This document shows, piece after piece, positions 8,712 to 29,564 of a DNA stretch of 64,000 nucleotides. The stretch is from positions 434,001-498,000 of the forward strand of contig NZ_QNRR01000001.1 in the NCBI RefSeq assembly GCF_003315205.1, read 5' to 3'. Each line of letters opens with the position of its first letter. The stretch's first letter is position 1. A program made the translations under genes and the position numbers. The DNA comes from Roseimicrobium gellanilyticum. Lineage in GTDB: Bacteria > Verrucomicrobiota > Verrucomicrobiia > Verrucomicrobiales > Verrucomicrobiaceae. Under the pieces are notes generated by a model. The model was not told the origin of the DNA. It saw only the letters and a list, made by a program, of their open reading frames with translations, and did no database searches.

Positions 8712-10367
8712 CTACCTCCGCTTCTTCGTCTTCCGGCCGAACATAATCGCACGAGCCTTGTCTTCGTTCTCCAGCACGGTCGTGTACTTGTAGGGGAAGT
8801 TGTCCAGCTTCTTGCGCTCGATCTCCTGGCCGATGAGGCGCTCAATGGAGGAGACATAACCGATCTCTTCGGCAGTGAATAGGGTGAAGGCATCGCCTTC
8901 CTTCTTCGCGCGTCCGGTACGGCCGATGCGGTGGACGTAGTCTTCCGAGCGCTCGGGGACCATGTAGTTGATCACGTGGGTCACGCCGCTGATGTCCAGA
9001 CCGCGCGCGGCGACGTCGGTGGCGACGATGACCTCCACCTTGCCTTCGCGGAAATCCTGCAGGGCCTTCTCGCGGTCGCGTTGGGTGATGTCGCCATGCA
9101 TGACGGCGGCCTTGTGTTCACCGTCGCGCTGGATCGAGCCGAAGAGGCGATCTGCATCCATCTTCGTGCGGGTGAAAATCATCACGCTGTGGAAGTCGGT
9201 GCGGCGCAGCAGCTCGAGCAGCAATTCCTCACGCTGATCGCTGGCGACGGGATACAGGTAGTGGCTCACCGTCTCGGAGGGCGAGAAGCGGATGCCAACT
9301 TCCACACTGGCAGGCTCCTTCAGCGCCCAATCCGCAAGCCCCTTGATCTGTGCGGGCATCGTGGCGGAGAAGAACAGTGTCTGGCGGGTGCGCGGTGTGC
9401 GCTCCACAATGCGGCGTACGTCCGGCAGGAAGCCCATGTCCAGCATGCGGTCCACTTCATCGAGGATGAGCACCTCGACCGTGTCGAGATTCACGGTGCC
9501 ATCCTGCATGAAATCCAGCAGGCGCCCCGGAGTGGCCACCACGATGTCGACGCCCTGCTGCAAGCCCTTGCGTTGCTTCTCATACCCCACGCCCCCATGC
9601 ACGAGCAGGGTGCGCAGACCGGTGTGTTTGCCCAGCTTGTCGAAATTGTCCACCACCTGGGCTGCCAGCTCGCGCGTGGGTTCCAGGATGAGGCAGCGCA
9701 GCGCACCGGGAGCCCCCATCTTGCTGAGCGCGGGCATGCCGAATGCTGCCGTCTTGCCGGTGCCGGTCTGCGAGGCTCCGATAAGGTCGCGGCCTTCCAG
9801 CACAATGGGCGCGGCCTTCACCTGAATCTCCGTGGGCTGGGCGTAGCCGAGGTCACGGATACCAGCCAGAATGGCAGGAGAGAAGCCCAGCACTTCAAAT
9901 GCCTCGGGATACGGACCCTCAGGAACAGGAGGGGCCGGGGGCGGCGGCAGGGCCTCGAAGTTCTGGCGGGGTGCATGCTCTTCGCGTTCGCCACGTTCCG
10001 GTTTGCCCGAGCGTCCTCCACGTCCTGACCTTCCATCACGGCCTCCGCGGGCATCCCTTCCACCGCGAGGCCCTCTTTCGCCATCACGGCCTCCACGGGG
10101 GCCGCGGTCACCTTCGCGAGGAGGTCTGGAGCCTTCGCGACGCTCACCCTCAGCGCGAGGATGACGGGAACTCTTCTTGTCATCATGCCCACCGGCGGTC
10201 GGCTTTTTCGCAGGGTGATGCTTTGCACTCGCGTGCAGCTTCTCCGGGTGTTCCTCGTGGCCGTGTTTCTTCTCCTCGGTCTTCTTCTTTTTCGAGCCAA
10301 GCAGGCGTTTGATGCCTGACTTCAGACGGGTGAGCAGGGACGTTTTGGGCTTTTTCGGAGTGGTCAC
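8712..10367 (-). CDS. DEAD-box ATP-dependent RNA helicase, RhlE-like, with long basic N-terminal tail
   Basis: 551 residues. The helicase core starts near residue 155: Q motif around YAQPTEIQ, Walker A ASQTGTGKT (198-206), PTREL (230-234), TPGR (279-282), motif II at 303-306, SAT (334-336), ARGLD (454-458) and HRIGRTGR (479-486). Motif II reads DEVD rather than DEAD, yet the Walker B acidic residues are intact. Residues 1-150 are Lys-rich then Arg/Gly/Asp-rich (repeated RGGRD/RGPRGGRD), an RNA-binding type tail that most RhlE proteins carry at the C-terminus. RhlE-type enzymes remodel rRNA and mRNA. It stands alone, convergent with the gene at 7653. Confidence 0.9.
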   Translation of the reverse strand: MTTPKKPKTSLLTRLKSGIKRLLGSKKKKTEEKKHGHEEHPEKLHASAKHHPAKKPTAGGHDDKKSSRHPRAEGERREGSRPPREGDRGPRGGRDGERGPRGGRDARGGRDGRSGRGGRSGKPERGEREEHAPRQNFEALPPPPAPPVPEGPYPEAFEVLGFSPAILAGIRDLGYAQPTEIQVKAAPIVLEGRDLIGASQTGTGKTAAFGMPALSKMGAPGALRCLILEPTRELAAQVVDNFDKLGKHTGLRTLLVHGGVGYEKQRKGLQQGVDIVVATPGRLLDFMQDGTVNLDTVEVLILDEVDRMLDMGFLPDVRRIVERTPRTRQTLFFSATMPAQIKGLADWALKEPASVEVGIRFSPSETVSHYLYPVASDQREELLLELLRRTDFHSVMIFTRTKMDADRLFGSIQRDGEHKAAVMHGDITQRDREKALQDFREGKVEVIVATDVAARGLDISGVTHVINYMVPERSEDYVHRIGRTGRAKKEGDAFTLFTAEEIGYVSSIERLIGQEIERKKLDNFPYKYTTVLENEDKARAIMFGRKTKKRR

Positions 10368-25463: not shown

Positions 25464-25564
25464 AAGACATGGTAGTCGCTTGGCAGATATTGATCTGGCG
25501 GCGGCTTGAAACTCGGAGATCGAGAACAGTCGAAGAAAGCAGATTGTTCTCTCAATCCAAGATC

Positions 25565-25867
25565 ATGAACACCAAAATATACATCGGGAATCTTTCCTTC
25601 GACACTTCGGAGACGGATCTTCGGGCCACTTGCGAACAACACGGTTTGGTTACCGATATTCATTTCCCAATGGATCGCAGTACAGGCCGCCCTCGTGGCT
25701 TTGCCTTTGTAACGATGGAAAGCGCTGAAGGCATGAAGAAGGCTATCTCCGCGATGAACGGCAAACCGCTGAACGGCCGCCTGCTGAATGTCAATGAGGC
25801 GATGCCTCGTGAAGAACGCCCCGCATTTTCTGGCGGAGCAGGTGGCAGAAGGCAAAGCCGCTACTAA
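25565..25867 (+). CDS. Small RNA-binding protein, single RRM
   Basis: 100 residues from the ATG at 25565. One RRM fold with RNP2 KIYIGNLSF at residues 4-12 and RNP1 RGFAFVTM at about 42-49, followed by a Gly/Arg-rich tail (GGAGGRRQSRY). Such short RRM proteins (like Rbp of cyanobacteria) bind single-stranded RNA and are often cold-induced. The frame opens upstream at 25469, but those codons lie in the leader. An intrinsic terminator follows, so it is monocistronic. Confidence 0.93.
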   Translation: MNTKIYIGNLSFDTSETDLRATCEQHGLVTDIHFPMDRSTGRPRGFAFVTMESAEGMKKAISAMNGKPLNGRLLNVNEAMPREERPAFSGGAGGRRQSRY

Positions 25868-25917: not shown

Positions 25918-25948
25918 GGCGGAGTCTCTTGCGGGATTCCGCCTTTTT
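25918..25948 (+). terminator. Intrinsic terminator of the RRM gene
   Basis: GGCGGA, 14-base loop, TCCGCC and T5. It lies 50 bases after the RRM stop. Confidence 0.75.
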
Positions 25949-25996: not shown

Positions 25997-26026
25997 CGTG
26001 CACTTGAGGGGGCGAATGTTGCATCC

Positions 26027-26063
26027 TTACATTTGTAGTGGACAGATCTCTACGAATGTAGTG
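26027..26063 (+). promoter_or_regulatory. Twin BlaI/MecI-type operator
   Basis: Two half-identical sites, TTACATTTGTAGTG (26027-26040) and CTACGAATGTAGTG (26050-26063), both matching TAC-N3-TGTAGTG, the BlaI/MecI class TACA/TGTA dyad. Spacing is 23 bases centre to centre, about two helical turns. The gene for the BlaI-type repressor begins at 26078, so autoregulation is expected. Confidence 0.7.
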
Positions 26064-26077
26064 ATCTCGCGGGAAAT

Positions 26078-26455
26078 ATGTCCCTGCCTGCTATTTCCGA
26101 ATCCGAATGGGCCGTCATGGAGGCCCTGTGGGAGTCCGCTCCGCAGACCGCCTCCGAGCTGACCAAGGCTCTGCGCCCGAAGATGAACTGGGCGGAGAAT
26201 ACGGTGCGCACCCTGCTGACACGCCTCATGGAAAAAGGGGCGCTCCATACCAACGAGAATAGTGCCGGAACCCGCACCTACCTGCCGGCGGTGAAACGCG
26301 AGGCCTGTGTGCGGGCGGAGGGGGAGTCCTTCATGCAGCGTGTCTTTGGTGGGGCTGCGAAGCCGTTGCTCGTCCACTTCGCCCAGAACAGCAAGCTCAC
26401 TGCCGAAGAAGTGCGCGAGCTGAAGAAGATTCTCGATCAATCGCTCAAGTCCTGA
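26078..26455 (+). CDS. BlaI/MecI/CopY-family transcriptional repressor
   Basis: 125 residues, full length. N-terminal winged helix (ISESEWAVMEALWESAP, helix 3 near NTVRTLLTRLMEKGAL) and a C-terminal helical dimerisation segment (LTAEEVRELKKILDQ). Family repressors bind TACA/TGTA operators and are cleaved when a BlaR1-type membrane peptidase is activated. Twin operators precede it, and the M56 peptidase gene begins 12 bases after its stop, giving the classic repressor-peptidase operon. Confidence 0.92.
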   Translation: MSLPAISESEWAVMEALWESAPQTASELTKALRPKMNWAENTVRTLLTRLMEKGALHTNENSAGTRTYLPAVKREACVRAEGESFMQRVFGGAAKPLLVHFAQNSKLTAEEVRELKKILDQSLKS

Positions 26456-26467
26456 CTCGACCCTGCC

Positions 26468-28285
26468 ATGAACACCCTCATGCCGCTCTTTGATTGGATG
26501 CTCACCGCGAGTGCACGCGCCTCGGTGCTTGCGGTGGTGGTGCTCATCGTCCAGGCGCTGCTGCGGCACCGTGTGCCGGCACGGTGGCTTTCTGCTCTCT
26601 GGCTGCCGGTGCTCGTCGTGCTGCTCATGCCGGTGTTTCCGGAAAGTTCGTGGAGTATGAGTTCCATCACGCGTCTTGGCCCGGTGAAGAAGATGGAGGT
26701 TCCTGTGATGAAGCAGACCACTGTAGCTCTCCCTATGCCGCCCATCGCTTCGGGAGAAGCCGCCAGGTCGGCGCCCATGCCGTGGAGGCAAATCCTGGCG
26801 GTGGTGTGGCTCACTGGTGTGGTGAGCACAGTACTCATCGGCCTGGGCTCTTATGGACACACGCTGCGACGGTACAAGCGCAGTCGTCAGCCATTGAGCG
26901 AGGGTTTGCAGCGCGAGATTGCGGGGATGGTTCGAGAAGTGGGGCTGCGTCGTGTTCCGCGTGTCTGGATGTCCGCGGCGGTGCCCAGCCCTGCGGTCAC
27001 TGGTTTGCTGCGTCCCGTGCTGCTGCTTCCAGCACAGTTCGAGCAGACGCTCACGGTGCACGAGGCTCGTCTGGTCTTGAAACACGAACTCATGCACATA
27101 AAGCGTGGCGATCTGCTGGTGAATGCGCTGCTCTGTCTCCTGCTTTCGATGCATTGGTTCAACCCGCTGCTGTGGTTCGCGTTCCTCAAGGCGCGCTTTG
27201 ATCGCGAAGCTGCTTGTGACGCGCAAGTGCTCGGTGGTGAAGGCCAGGTCGAGCGGGTGGCCTACGGGCACACCTTGCTGAAGGTGGAGACCTCCTTCAG
27301 CCATCACGGACTCAGTCTCGGTTTTGTCGGCATCTTCCAGCGCGGCGCTGCCCTGCGCTCCCGCATTCGTTTCATTGCAGCCAGGCCCAATCAGCATCCT
27401 CTTATGAAAGCCACTCTCAGCCTCGGCATCGTGCTTTTGAGTTTCCTTGGCATCACCCAGGCCGCGACTCCGGCACCGGATCCGAAAGCTCTCCAGATCT
27501 ACATCACTTCCAAGTTTGTGGAAATCACCGAACAAAAGGCAGGGGCTTCCGCGAGCGCCCTGCCGTTTGGTCTGCTGGAGGAGAAGGGAACGCCCGGCCT
27601 TATCGGCACTCTTACCGATCCTCAATTCCAAGTGCTGATTCGGGGACTCAGCAAGCGGAAAGGCGTGGATCTCATGGCCGCTCCCTCAGTGCTCACAAGA
27701 TCCGGACAGCCAGCCAGGATTGAAGTGGTGCGTGAGTTCGTTTACCCAGACAACAAGAGCAGACAGGTGACCGAAAACGTGGGTGTCTTTCTCGAACTGA
27801 CCCCGAAGGTGACTAGGGAGGAGCAGATCACCCTGGCTCTCGCTCCGAAGGTGGTGGAGTTCGAGGGATTTGCCCCTGCCGAAGGTGCAAGCCCGGATTC
27901 CGTCTCCGTGAGGAAGGTTCTGCACCCGGATGGCACCAGCACACTGTCTGCGAGCGATGCCGTACGCGGAGAGGTTGAAGAGTCCACCTATGACGCCAAG
28001 GGGGCGCTGATCTCCATGACCAGGGTCCCCTACAAGAAGCCTGTCTTCAGCAAGCGTGAAGCCAAGGCTGATGTGGTGCTGAGCGATGGACAAACCGTGG
28101 TCATGGAATTGCAGCCGAGAACTGACAAGCAACTCGTGGAAGAAACTGACGCGGCAGGACGGACGATCAAGTCGGAGACTATCTCCTTTCAGAGACGGTG
28201 TTTCGTCTTTGTCACTGCAAACCTGATCGACCCTTTGGGTGATCCGCCTGCTCCGAAACCCGCTGGCGGTACCGAGAAGCGGTGA
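26468..28285 (+). CDS. BlaR1-like M56 membrane peptidase fused to a secretin-like domain
   Basis: 605 residues. Membrane spans lie at about 16-33, 40-56, 107-128 and 213-240. The M56 peptidase signature HELMH is at 206-210, with the third-ligand motif FDREAACD at 244-251. A further hydrophobic segment follows at about 313-332 (LSLGIVLLSFLGITQAA). Canonical BlaR1 then has a penicillin-binding sensor; here residues about 345-590 instead resemble secretin (GspD) domains: TLTDPQFQVLIRGLSKRKGV, DLMAAPSVLTRSGQPA, GVFLELTPKVTR, and DVVLSDGQTVVMELQP. The Ser-x-x-Lys sensor motifs of beta-lactam sensors are absent. It presumably cleaves or signals to the BlaI-type repressor. Confidence 0.82.
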   Translation: MNTLMPLFDWMLTASARASVLAVVVLIVQALLRHRVPARWLSALWLPVLVVLLMPVFPESSWSMSSITRLGPVKKMEVPVMKQTTVALPMPPIASGEAARSAPMPWRQILAVVWLTGVVSTVLIGLGSYGHTLRRYKRSRQPLSEGLQREIAGMVREVGLRRVPRVWMSAAVPSPAVTGLLRPVLLLPAQFEQTLTVHEARLVLKHELMHIKRGDLLVNALLCLLLSMHWFNPLLWFAFLKARFDREAACDAQVLGGEGQVERVAYGHTLLKVETSFSHHGLSLGFVGIFQRGAALRSRIRFIAARPNQHPLMKATLSLGIVLLSFLGITQAATPAPDPKALQIYITSKFVEITEQKAGASASALPFGLLEEKGTPGLIGTLTDPQFQVLIRGLSKRKGVDLMAAPSVLTRSGQPARIEVVREFVYPDNKSRQVTENVGVFLELTPKVTREEQITLALAPKVVEFEGFAPAEGASPDSVSVRKVLHPDGTSTLSASDAVRGEVEESTYDAKGALISMTRVPYKKPVFSKREAKADVVLSDGQTVVMELQPRTDKQLVEETDAAGRTIKSETISFQRRCFVFVTANLIDPLGDPPAPKPAGGTEKR

Positions 28286-28591: not shown

Positions 28592-29470
28592 TCACTTCTT
28601 TGCCGCCTTCTGCTTCTCCCACTCCTTCAAGAAAGCCTGCTCACGGTCTTCCACATACCGCTTGTAGCCTTCCTTATCGATGAACGGATTTGTCGCCGCA
28701 CCTTCGAGATTCTTCACCTTGGCTTCCATGTCGTAGTAACTGCCGTGCGCACCGAGGAAAAGGTCTACGGGCAGGGACTTCAGCACGCGGAAGGTCTTCT
28801 CATAGTCGGTGGCGATGCCGGGATAGTCCTTGTTGTTCACGAGGACGTAGCCGGGATTCACATTCGGGCTGCCGATGATCACCGCGTCCAGCTTCTTGCC
28901 ATTCTCCTCCACCTGCAGGGTCCAAGTGGTGCAGCCGGGGGTGTGGCCCGGAGTTAGGTGTGCTACCAGCGTCGCCCCGCCCAGCTTCACTTCATCACCA
29001 TCCTTCAGCACACGGTCTACCTTGGCCGTGGGAAAGCCCAGGTAGGCGGGCTTCAGACGGGATTTTTTTGGAGCGTTGCCGGATTCCACCACAGCCACGT
29101 CCTGCTCCATCACCATGTACTTCGCTCCCGTGGCCTTGATGATGCTCGCGCTGCCCGCGCAGTGGTCCCAGTGCGCGTGGCTGATGAGCAGGATCTTCAC
29201 GTCGCTGAACTTGAAGCCCAGCTGCTCCACGTTCTTTTGAATCAGCGGCAGGGAGTCCTCAAGGTTGCTGTTGATAAGGACGTGTCCCTCCGGCGTGGTG
29301 ACGAGGTAGGTGGCAAGTCCCTTCGAGCCCACGTAGTAGAGATTGCCCGCGACCTTGTGCGGAGGGAAGGGTTCGGACCATTCCGCCGTGTTCTGCGCGT
29401 TTGCGGTGCTGGTGATCGTGGTGCTCAAACACAGGGCGAGCATGCCGGAGAGGAAGAGGGAGCGAGTCAT
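28592..29470 (-). CDS. Subclass B3-like metallo-beta-lactamase-fold hydrolase
   Basis: 292 residues from the ATG at 29470 (MTRSLFLSGMLALCLS, a signal peptide). The zinc motif HAHWDH (H98, H100, D102, H103), His176 in TPGHTPG, and the late GAHGSYYD match the B3 subclass. B3 enzymes hydrolyse beta-lactams, but many family members cleave lactones or other esters, so resistance is not proven. The signal peptide fits periplasmic export. The frame continues upstream through a 7-base tandem repeat, but the Met at 29470 is the sensible start. It is convergent with the BlaI/M56 operon and downstream of the dapL terminator. Confidence 0.8.
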   Translation of the reverse strand: MTRSLFLSGMLALCLSTTITSTANAQNTAEWSEPFPPHKVAGNLYYVGSKGLATYLVTTPEGHVLINSNLEDSLPLIQKNVEQLGFKFSDVKILLISHAHWDHCAGSASIIKATGAKYMVMEQDVAVVESGNAPKKSRLKPAYLGFPTAKVDRVLKDGDEVKLGGATLVAHLTPGHTPGCTTWTLQVEENGKKLDAVIIGSPNVNPGYVLVNNKDYPGIATDYEKTFRVLKSLPVDLFLGAHGSYYDMEAKVKNLEGAATNPFIDKEGYKRYVEDREQAFLKEWEKQKAAKK

Positions 29471-29483
29471 GCGGAGTGCGGAG

Positions 29484-29520
29484 TGACGAATGACGAATGA
29501 CGAATGACGAATGACGAATG
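29484..29520. repeat. 7-base tandem repeat, five units
   Basis: Five units of TGACGAA plus a partial TG, placed 14 bases upstream of the metallo-hydrolase start codon, between it and the dapL terminator. Confidence 0.8.
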
Positions 29521-29525
29521 CAGGC

Positions 29526-29564
29526 AAAAAAATTCGGGGAATGGGACCGTGCCCATTCCCCGAA
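29526..29564 (-). terminator. Intrinsic terminator of dapL
   Basis: On the minus strand TTCGGGGAATGGG pairs with CCCATTCCCCGAA (13-base stem, six-base loop), then T7. It lies just after dapL. Confidence 0.88.

Follow-up and report, generated by a model that had tools for sequence, protein, structure and literature searches.

A BlaR1-like M56 protease with a secretin-type sensor domain beside a BlaI-type repressor gene in Roseimicrobium gellanilyticum

The blaI-M56 locus and its fusion gene

The window (the whole stretch of DNA analysed, 64,000 nt of Roseimicrobium gellanilyticum) carries a fusion gene at 26468-28285 on the forward strand, a single ORF with an ATG start that encodes 605 aa. 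Residues 12-303 (26501-27376) form an M56 zinc protease domain with TM1-TM3; its HELMH motif is encoded at 27083-27097, and E247, D251 and R299 lie in the same domain. TM4 (residues 312-330 by hydropathy) and, right behind it, a T-Q-A motif similar to a site for signal peptidase I are found at 27401-27463. A secretin-type sensor domain comes next (residues 341-593, 27488-28246), as seen with PF00263, alignments and structure. Within it is an extra segment (residues 472-538, 27881-28081) which, in alignment A2, is common only to the window protein and its same-genus orthologue.

Upstream on the same strand is a gene for a 125 aa winged-helix repressor of BlaI type (26078-26455), preceded by a double operator. 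A terminator-like hairpin at 25918-25943 (forward strand, found by a consensus scan alone) lies between this unit and the gene of an RNA-binding protein (25469-25867). The genes that follow the fusion gene on its strand show no conservation across genera; several loci of genus g9 have a small downstream ORF in common, which we take to be ribonuclease-III-like. Antisense ORFs over the fusion gene (e.g., 26027-27631, reverse strand, 534 aa) run across a conserved reading frame, and we regard them as shadow ORFs.

The encoded M56 sensor protease has a secretin domain at the sensor position and no PBP-type sensor. Peptidase_M56 (PF05569) matches residues 12-303 (E 3.9e-58; 197.4 bits, cut-off 31), and the HEXXH motif is present with the distal Glu of the zinc site. 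Secretin (PF00263) matches in two stretches, the better of which covers residues 395-475 (E 1.2e-12; 48.2 bits, cut-off 27.5). Pfam finds no transpeptidase or beta-lactamase match in the fusion protein. The NCBIfam model blaR1_generic scores 139.3 bits, below its cut-off of 400, and its match stops at residue 311; NF042912, the Amuc_1098 family secretin, matches partially (E 2.3e-31; 108.6 bits), below the equivalog cut-off of 750. A PDB profile search with a profile of 23 homologues (alignment A1) as query returned S. aureus BlaR1 (5.2e-15) and the secretins GspD (ExeD/GspD), RcpA and PilQ (from 2.1e-14).

An AlphaFold model built on A1 has a mean pLDDT of 77.4 and a pTM of 0.55. Most sensor strands reach a pLDDT of 80-90, and values below 50 occur only at residues 59-101, 281-290, 332-336, 358-364, 472-480 and 592-605. 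Its best Foldseek matches are secretins and BlaR1, with low whole-chain TM-scores because the query has two domains. Residues 7-297 align with BlaR1 (8ext; VIA-align 2) at Z 21.2 and 3.5 Å over 247 residues. The original prediction was to fall if residues 345-590 lacked a structural match to secretins; the match was found, residues 341-594 aligning with GspD (5zdh; VIA-align 2) at Z 12.9 with an rmsd of 3.2 Å over 141 residues. It had also read HELMH and FDREAACD as M56 motifs, which are located at 206-210 and around E247/D251, and had a secretin-type domain replacing the PBP sensor, on which Pfam, the PDB profile search and the AlphaFold model agree. It had proposed an alignment to GspD N and secretin domains; the C-domain is there, and the N domain is absent from the window protein.

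The fusion is not an assembly accident, since the congener G061 has a full-length orthologue (72% identical) and the same fusion occurs in other genera. With the fusion protein as query (P0001), matches at or below 1e-25 were found in 54 of 286 genomes of the class, and at or below 1e-22 in 25 of 387 genomes of the phylum; plain secretins and M56 proteins whose sensors differ are among the proteins counted, and few candidates were scored per genome. M56-secretin fusions were confirmed outside the family but within the class at L133, L134 and L148-L152, and outside the class in the same phylum at L160. A scan of named genomes gave one clostridial M56 locus, without a sensor match.

Protease core, repressor and operators

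H206, E207, H210, E247, D251 and R299 are invariant in all 23 aligned sequences. Residue equivalences to S. aureus BlaR1 were taken from the PDB profile alignment, in which H206, E207, H210 and E247 align with the BlaR1 zinc site, and D251 and R299 with the D246-R294' pair. PMC9834060 describes an interchain salt bridge between Asp246 and Arg294' in the active site of S. aureus BlaR1, autocleavage at Ser283-Phe284 and cleavage of BlaI at Asn101-Phe102. At a constant offset of five, the equivalent of the autocleavage position is Gly288-Ile289 (Gly in 22/23, Ile in 20/23).

The repressor belongs to the BlaI/MecI family (PF03965, E 1.6e-31; 109.5 bits, cut-off 22.6). Aligned to S. aureus BlaI (1sd4), its His100-Phe101 occupies the place of Asn101-Phe102, with Phe101, at the BlaR1 cleavage position, encoded at 26378-26380 (forward strand). 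His100-Phe101 is kept in 21/21 orthologous BlaIs, and among five paralogous BlaIs of the genome that were compared, only that of cluster C10 (64% identical) has the cleavage-site Phe. A BlaI-type repressor gene adjoining the fusion gene, as was predicted, is borne out well beyond this genome: blaI stands directly upstream of the M56 gene in 20/20 orthologous loci from other genomes of the family, which were picked from the better-scoring matches, not randomly. The fusion protein and the BlaI-type repressor very probably form a pair. As the zinc ligands, the BlaR1-type D-R pair and the cleavage-site Phe are all kept, the core is probably live, and the invariant residues make an active protease that cuts BlaI likely.

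Operator 1 (CCTTACATTTGTAGTG, 26025-26040, forward strand) is the first half of the double BlaI operator; it has a PWM score of 19.6 and a perfect TACAnnTGTA core at 26028-26037. Operator 2 (CTCTACGAATGTAGTG, 26048-26063, forward strand) follows exactly 23 bp downstream. The double operator (CACTACAwwTGTAGTG-like, 23 bp register) lies ahead of blaI in 21/21 loci (the window and 20 others), matching 17 or 18 of the 18 specified bases. Other blaI genes of the genome differ in this respect: that of C10 has the same operator type, and the palindromes or cores in front of those of C8, C2 (two) and C1 are visibly different.

A search of 68 genomes with the double pattern, with no more than one mismatch allowed on the better strand, gave 31 sites in 29 genomes, all 31 of them 96-437 bp upstream of an M56 match. 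Rows with two or three mismatches were about equal in number to those of a reversed control pattern. The two-mismatch site of G009 is at a blaI-M56 locus and that of G033 at a broken M56 locus, and the two-mismatch row of G048 overlaps that genome's own operator pair. One M56 gene under a double operator (G019:C5; L156:1052-2836, reverse strand) is without an adjacent blaI; as it has none of its own, BlaI probably acts there in trans. A wider regulon was rejected after further scans, which used the single extended site with up to two mismatches (68 genomes; matches listed end at G016) and ACTACnnnTGTAGT with one mismatch allowed (three genomes). Among the matches listed, some weak repeated single-site hits (CACTACAAATGGCGTG and similar) resemble conserved coding sequence.

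Within the Roseimicrobium genome, TACAnnTGTA has eight perfect sites, against 68 for the reversed control, and a BlaI-type site seems to be avoided. Four of the eight are at blaI-M56 operons (this locus, C8 and a pair at C10); the other four fall within ORFs, and one of these is 26 bases away from a start codon. A PWM scan, which covered 324 kb of 7.9 Mb, detected no operator at the genome's own secretin operon; degenerate or differently spaced sites escape such scans.

Predicted operators stand at the locus's own promoter; beyond it, good matches were found only in front of M56 genes. With 31 of 31 good matches directly upstream of M56 genes, the regulon that can be detected hardly extends beyond the operon, and on these patterns the chance that output is limited to M56 genes is about even. 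The original prediction envisaged a relay to an outside regulon; the BlaI site scans place targets at M56/blaI operons alone, and judged by its sites the pair looks like a closed loop instead. Counting against a closed loop, orthologous BlaIs are extremely conserved (71-93% identity), more so than would be expected for a repressor with a single target.

In the C10 unit (L045:7004-12760) a single BlaI gene precedes two M56-secretin fusions in tandem, which include an N-domain-like stretch. Its BlaI is 64% identical to the window BlaI and its operators, of the same type, have a 24-bp spacing, so that cross-regulation between the two units is possible.

A complete subclass B3 metallo-beta-lactamase gene (28592-29527, reverse strand) is convergent with the fusion gene and adjoins dapL, the LL-diaminopimelate aminotransferase gene. 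Its product scores 321 bits against NF033105 (cut-off 240) and is FEZ-1-like (E 2.8e-86, 293 bits). This gene, overlooked in the original prediction, is the obvious argument for a beta-lactam role, in which M56/BlaI would control the B3 gene and the secretin domain would read drug-caused envelope damage. The linkage is kept in G061 but is missing from 19/19 orthologous loci of other genera, and the two genes converge with no common promoter. No operator was found at the B3 gene or dapL by PWM, the best score there being 3.4 against 19 for true sites. The sensor fold is that of a secretin, not of a PBP, and the genome has a separate M56-PBP_dimer-transpeptidase fusion with its own BlaI and a different operator. 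We consider such a beta-lactam unit improbable. Very probably the fusion protein is not a beta-lactam sensor: residues 341-594 match secretins, and the PBP/class D-like extracellular sensor of BlaR1 is absent. The modelled secretin fold at the sensor position gives good support to the claim that the cue is not a beta-lactam.

The M56-PBP fusion (L053:5466-8357, reverse strand; C2, ~710,500-713,400) joins an M56 protease to PBP dimerisation and transpeptidase domains, a PBP-type sensor unlike the class-D-like sensor of BlaR1. The operator of its blaI is a ACGAAnnnnTTCGT pair; the core occurs at nine places in the genome, two of them at this blaI, a total about as high as for the control. If the genome has a beta-lactam sensor, this fusion is its natural candidate, and a better one than the window fusion.

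Origin of the sensor domain

In the genome's own pilus-type secretin (L050 8351-10864, reverse strand), additional N-terminal regions, an STN-type module among them, accompany the C-domain and the gate motif, VPILGDIPILGRLF. Over residues 375-593 the fused domain is 39% identical to this secretin. In the fusion protein, the chain enters the first strand of the secretin C-domain directly after TM4, and the features of a functional secretin channel, the N domains and an LGDIP-type gate motif, are lacking. The secretin fold and sequence would suit a working outer-membrane pore fused to a protease, but TM4 anchors the protein in the inner membrane, and N domains, which would bridge the periplasm, are missing. 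Searched as a regular expression, the gate motif is present in 8/9 stand-alone secretins and in none of the 23 M56 ORFs that have a secretin match, of which two are incomplete, and the probability of a working pore is close to nil.

In a tree of 30 domains, 21 fused and nine stand-alone domains part by one branch (support 77/94), which fits one or several captures alike. The tree has four long branches and four gappy rows; L016 and L026 (broken or short) and repeats of the same locus were excluded. A recent duplication from the genome's own secretin was rejected, as the domain groups with M56-fused domains (100/96, five rows).

Thirteen members of the orthologous group (the window, L010-L012, L015, L017, L019, L021, L023, L030, L033, L035 and L038) were run through Pfam. 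Secretin scored above the cut-off in nine and just under it in L023. STN was above the cut-off in L017 and L021 and weak in L030, while L038 had neither. The lack of a Pfam Secretin match in some orthologues (e.g., L021, L030, L038) counts against the main reading, the self-regulated unit described below. Profiles built here detect an STN-like module, paired, in many further orthologues including L038; orthologues carry STN/N0-type domains in place of, or besides, the secretin C-domain. This domain content implies that the sensors come mainly from two pilus-secretin modules, the C-domain and STN, with protease, repressor and operator held constant.

Two related loci differ in arrangement. At L049:9035-10036 (forward strand; C1 of this genome), a gene for a 333-aa protein with an STN-like stretch, in which Pfam finds no match, has a BlaI gene on one side and an M56-secretin-STN gene on the other. 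In the orthologue G018:C6 (L064, ~10190-10230) a frameshift breaks the sensor; the protease and blaI are still open.

Secretin domains multimerise, and the sensor half could be a passive scaffold, its secretin or STN domains serving dimer or ring formation while the membrane part reads lipid or membrane stress. Orthologues swap the secretin C-domain for STN repeats with blaI, operators and protease unchanged, and between congeners the sensor changes faster (62% identity) than the protease (78%), as a scaffold would allow. The nameable replacements in the orthologous group are nevertheless all secretin parts, a common source for which a simple scaffold has no need, and the sensor is under purifying selection (dN/dS ~0.25, two congeners). 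On balance a scaffold is rather doubtful.

Behind TM4, T330 is found in 20/23 and A332 in 22/23 aligned rows. A small-x-A motif follows TM4 in 45/52 M56 proteins with different sensors, against 14/52 after TM2, which has the same orientation; the motif also arises in 51% of TM4 flanks with shuffled residues, so that the count, in which orthologues are not independent, is weak on its own, a lead and not a result. TM4 (MKATLSLGIVLLSFLGITQA/ATP) resembles a Sec signal peptide, and the Pfam M56 match stops at residue 303, ahead of it. TM4 could be an internal signal peptide, with signal peptidase I freeing the secretin-like half and the link between sensor and protease temporary or regulated. The shuffled control and the shared ancestry of the rows weigh against such a precursor, as does the lack of a Shine-Dalgarno-like sequence before Met313, which leaves a separate internal start unsupported. 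We regard a precursor of this kind as quite unlikely. A separate translation start at Met313 was rejected outright, there being no Shine-Dalgarno-like sequence and the Met not being conserved. Perhaps the sensors were captured as whole secreted precursors, and the signal peptide turned into TM4.

A possible envelope circuit and its relation to known systems

The PilQ of Akkermansia (Amuc_1098) is reported to be by far the most prominent outer-membrane protein (PMC4960237), which makes PilQ assembly a plausible thing to monitor. Secretin or pilus assembly as the cue is a tentative proposal. No physical link of the locus to a pilus or secretin gene was found, its neighbours being osmoregulated glucan genes, dapL and the beta-lactamase gene. 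The fusion protein possibly watches envelope assembly, as originally suggested.

In the proposed mechanism, the M56 protein would be anchored in the inner membrane, its zinc protease on the cytoplasmic side and its secretin-derived domain in the periplasm, and BlaI, bound to two operators 23 bp apart before blaI, would hold the gene pair low. The cue would most likely be a partner of the real PilQ/Amuc_1098-type secretin (an unassembled subunit, a pilotin or a pilus alignment protein). On meeting the periplasmic domain it would activate the protease, BlaI would be cut before Phe101 and the operators freed, the main output being more sensor-protease. We infer a periplasmic sensor switched by a secretin partner, with mainly sensor-protease as output. 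Taken whole, a two-gene, self-regulated signalling unit of this kind is a serious possibility at somewhat less than even chances. The evidence suggests a small self-contained circuit that watches the cell envelope, not antibiotics.

An unlikely version is decoy surveillance, in which the protease's secretin piece would compete for the real secretin's partners and so report an unassembled or jammed secretin. The circuit would be closed, and the decoy-protease, as the only regulated product, might also leave the membrane, freed at the signal-peptidase-like site behind TM4, and serve as a chaperone or plug.

These results indicate that the BlaR1/BlaI core can take sensors made from pilus-channel parts, and across the 68 genomes scanned the only targets detected are M56 genes. 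If the envelope circuit is real, it offers a testable case of secretin-assembly monitoring from the inner membrane, and also a warning that a BlaI-BlaR1 annotation, even beside a beta-lactamase gene, need not imply beta-lactam sensing. A search of titles and abstract starts of open-licence PMC papers found no M56/BlaR1-secretin fusion.

BlaR1/BlaI is the textbook penicillin-sensing pair. The window pair shares with BlaR1/BlaI and MecR1/MecI of S. aureus an M56 gluzincin in which the same residues are invariant, four TM helices with the sensor after TM4, and an adjacent winged-helix repressor with a cleavage-site Phe. The staphylococcal BlaR1/BlaI system has palindromic TACAnnTGTA-type operators, as does the window locus. 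It differs from the staphylococcal systems in that its sensor is secretin-type, not class-D/PBP-type, its operon has no dedicated resistance gene, and detectable operators are found at M56 genes only. N0/STN-type domains of outer-membrane machines also act as signalling modules in transducers of the FecA/FpvA kind, via an anti-sigma factor; here the protease itself carries the domain. The M56 proteins with class D active sites from environmental bacteria (PMC9045261) likewise join M56 to another domain, and their sensors are beta-lactamase-like, of a different type from that of the window protein. With the Amuc_1098-family (PilQ) secretins the window protein has in common the secretin C-domain, and its orthologues also the STN-type domain, but it is anchored in the inner membrane and is without their TPR, N domains and LGDIP gate motif.
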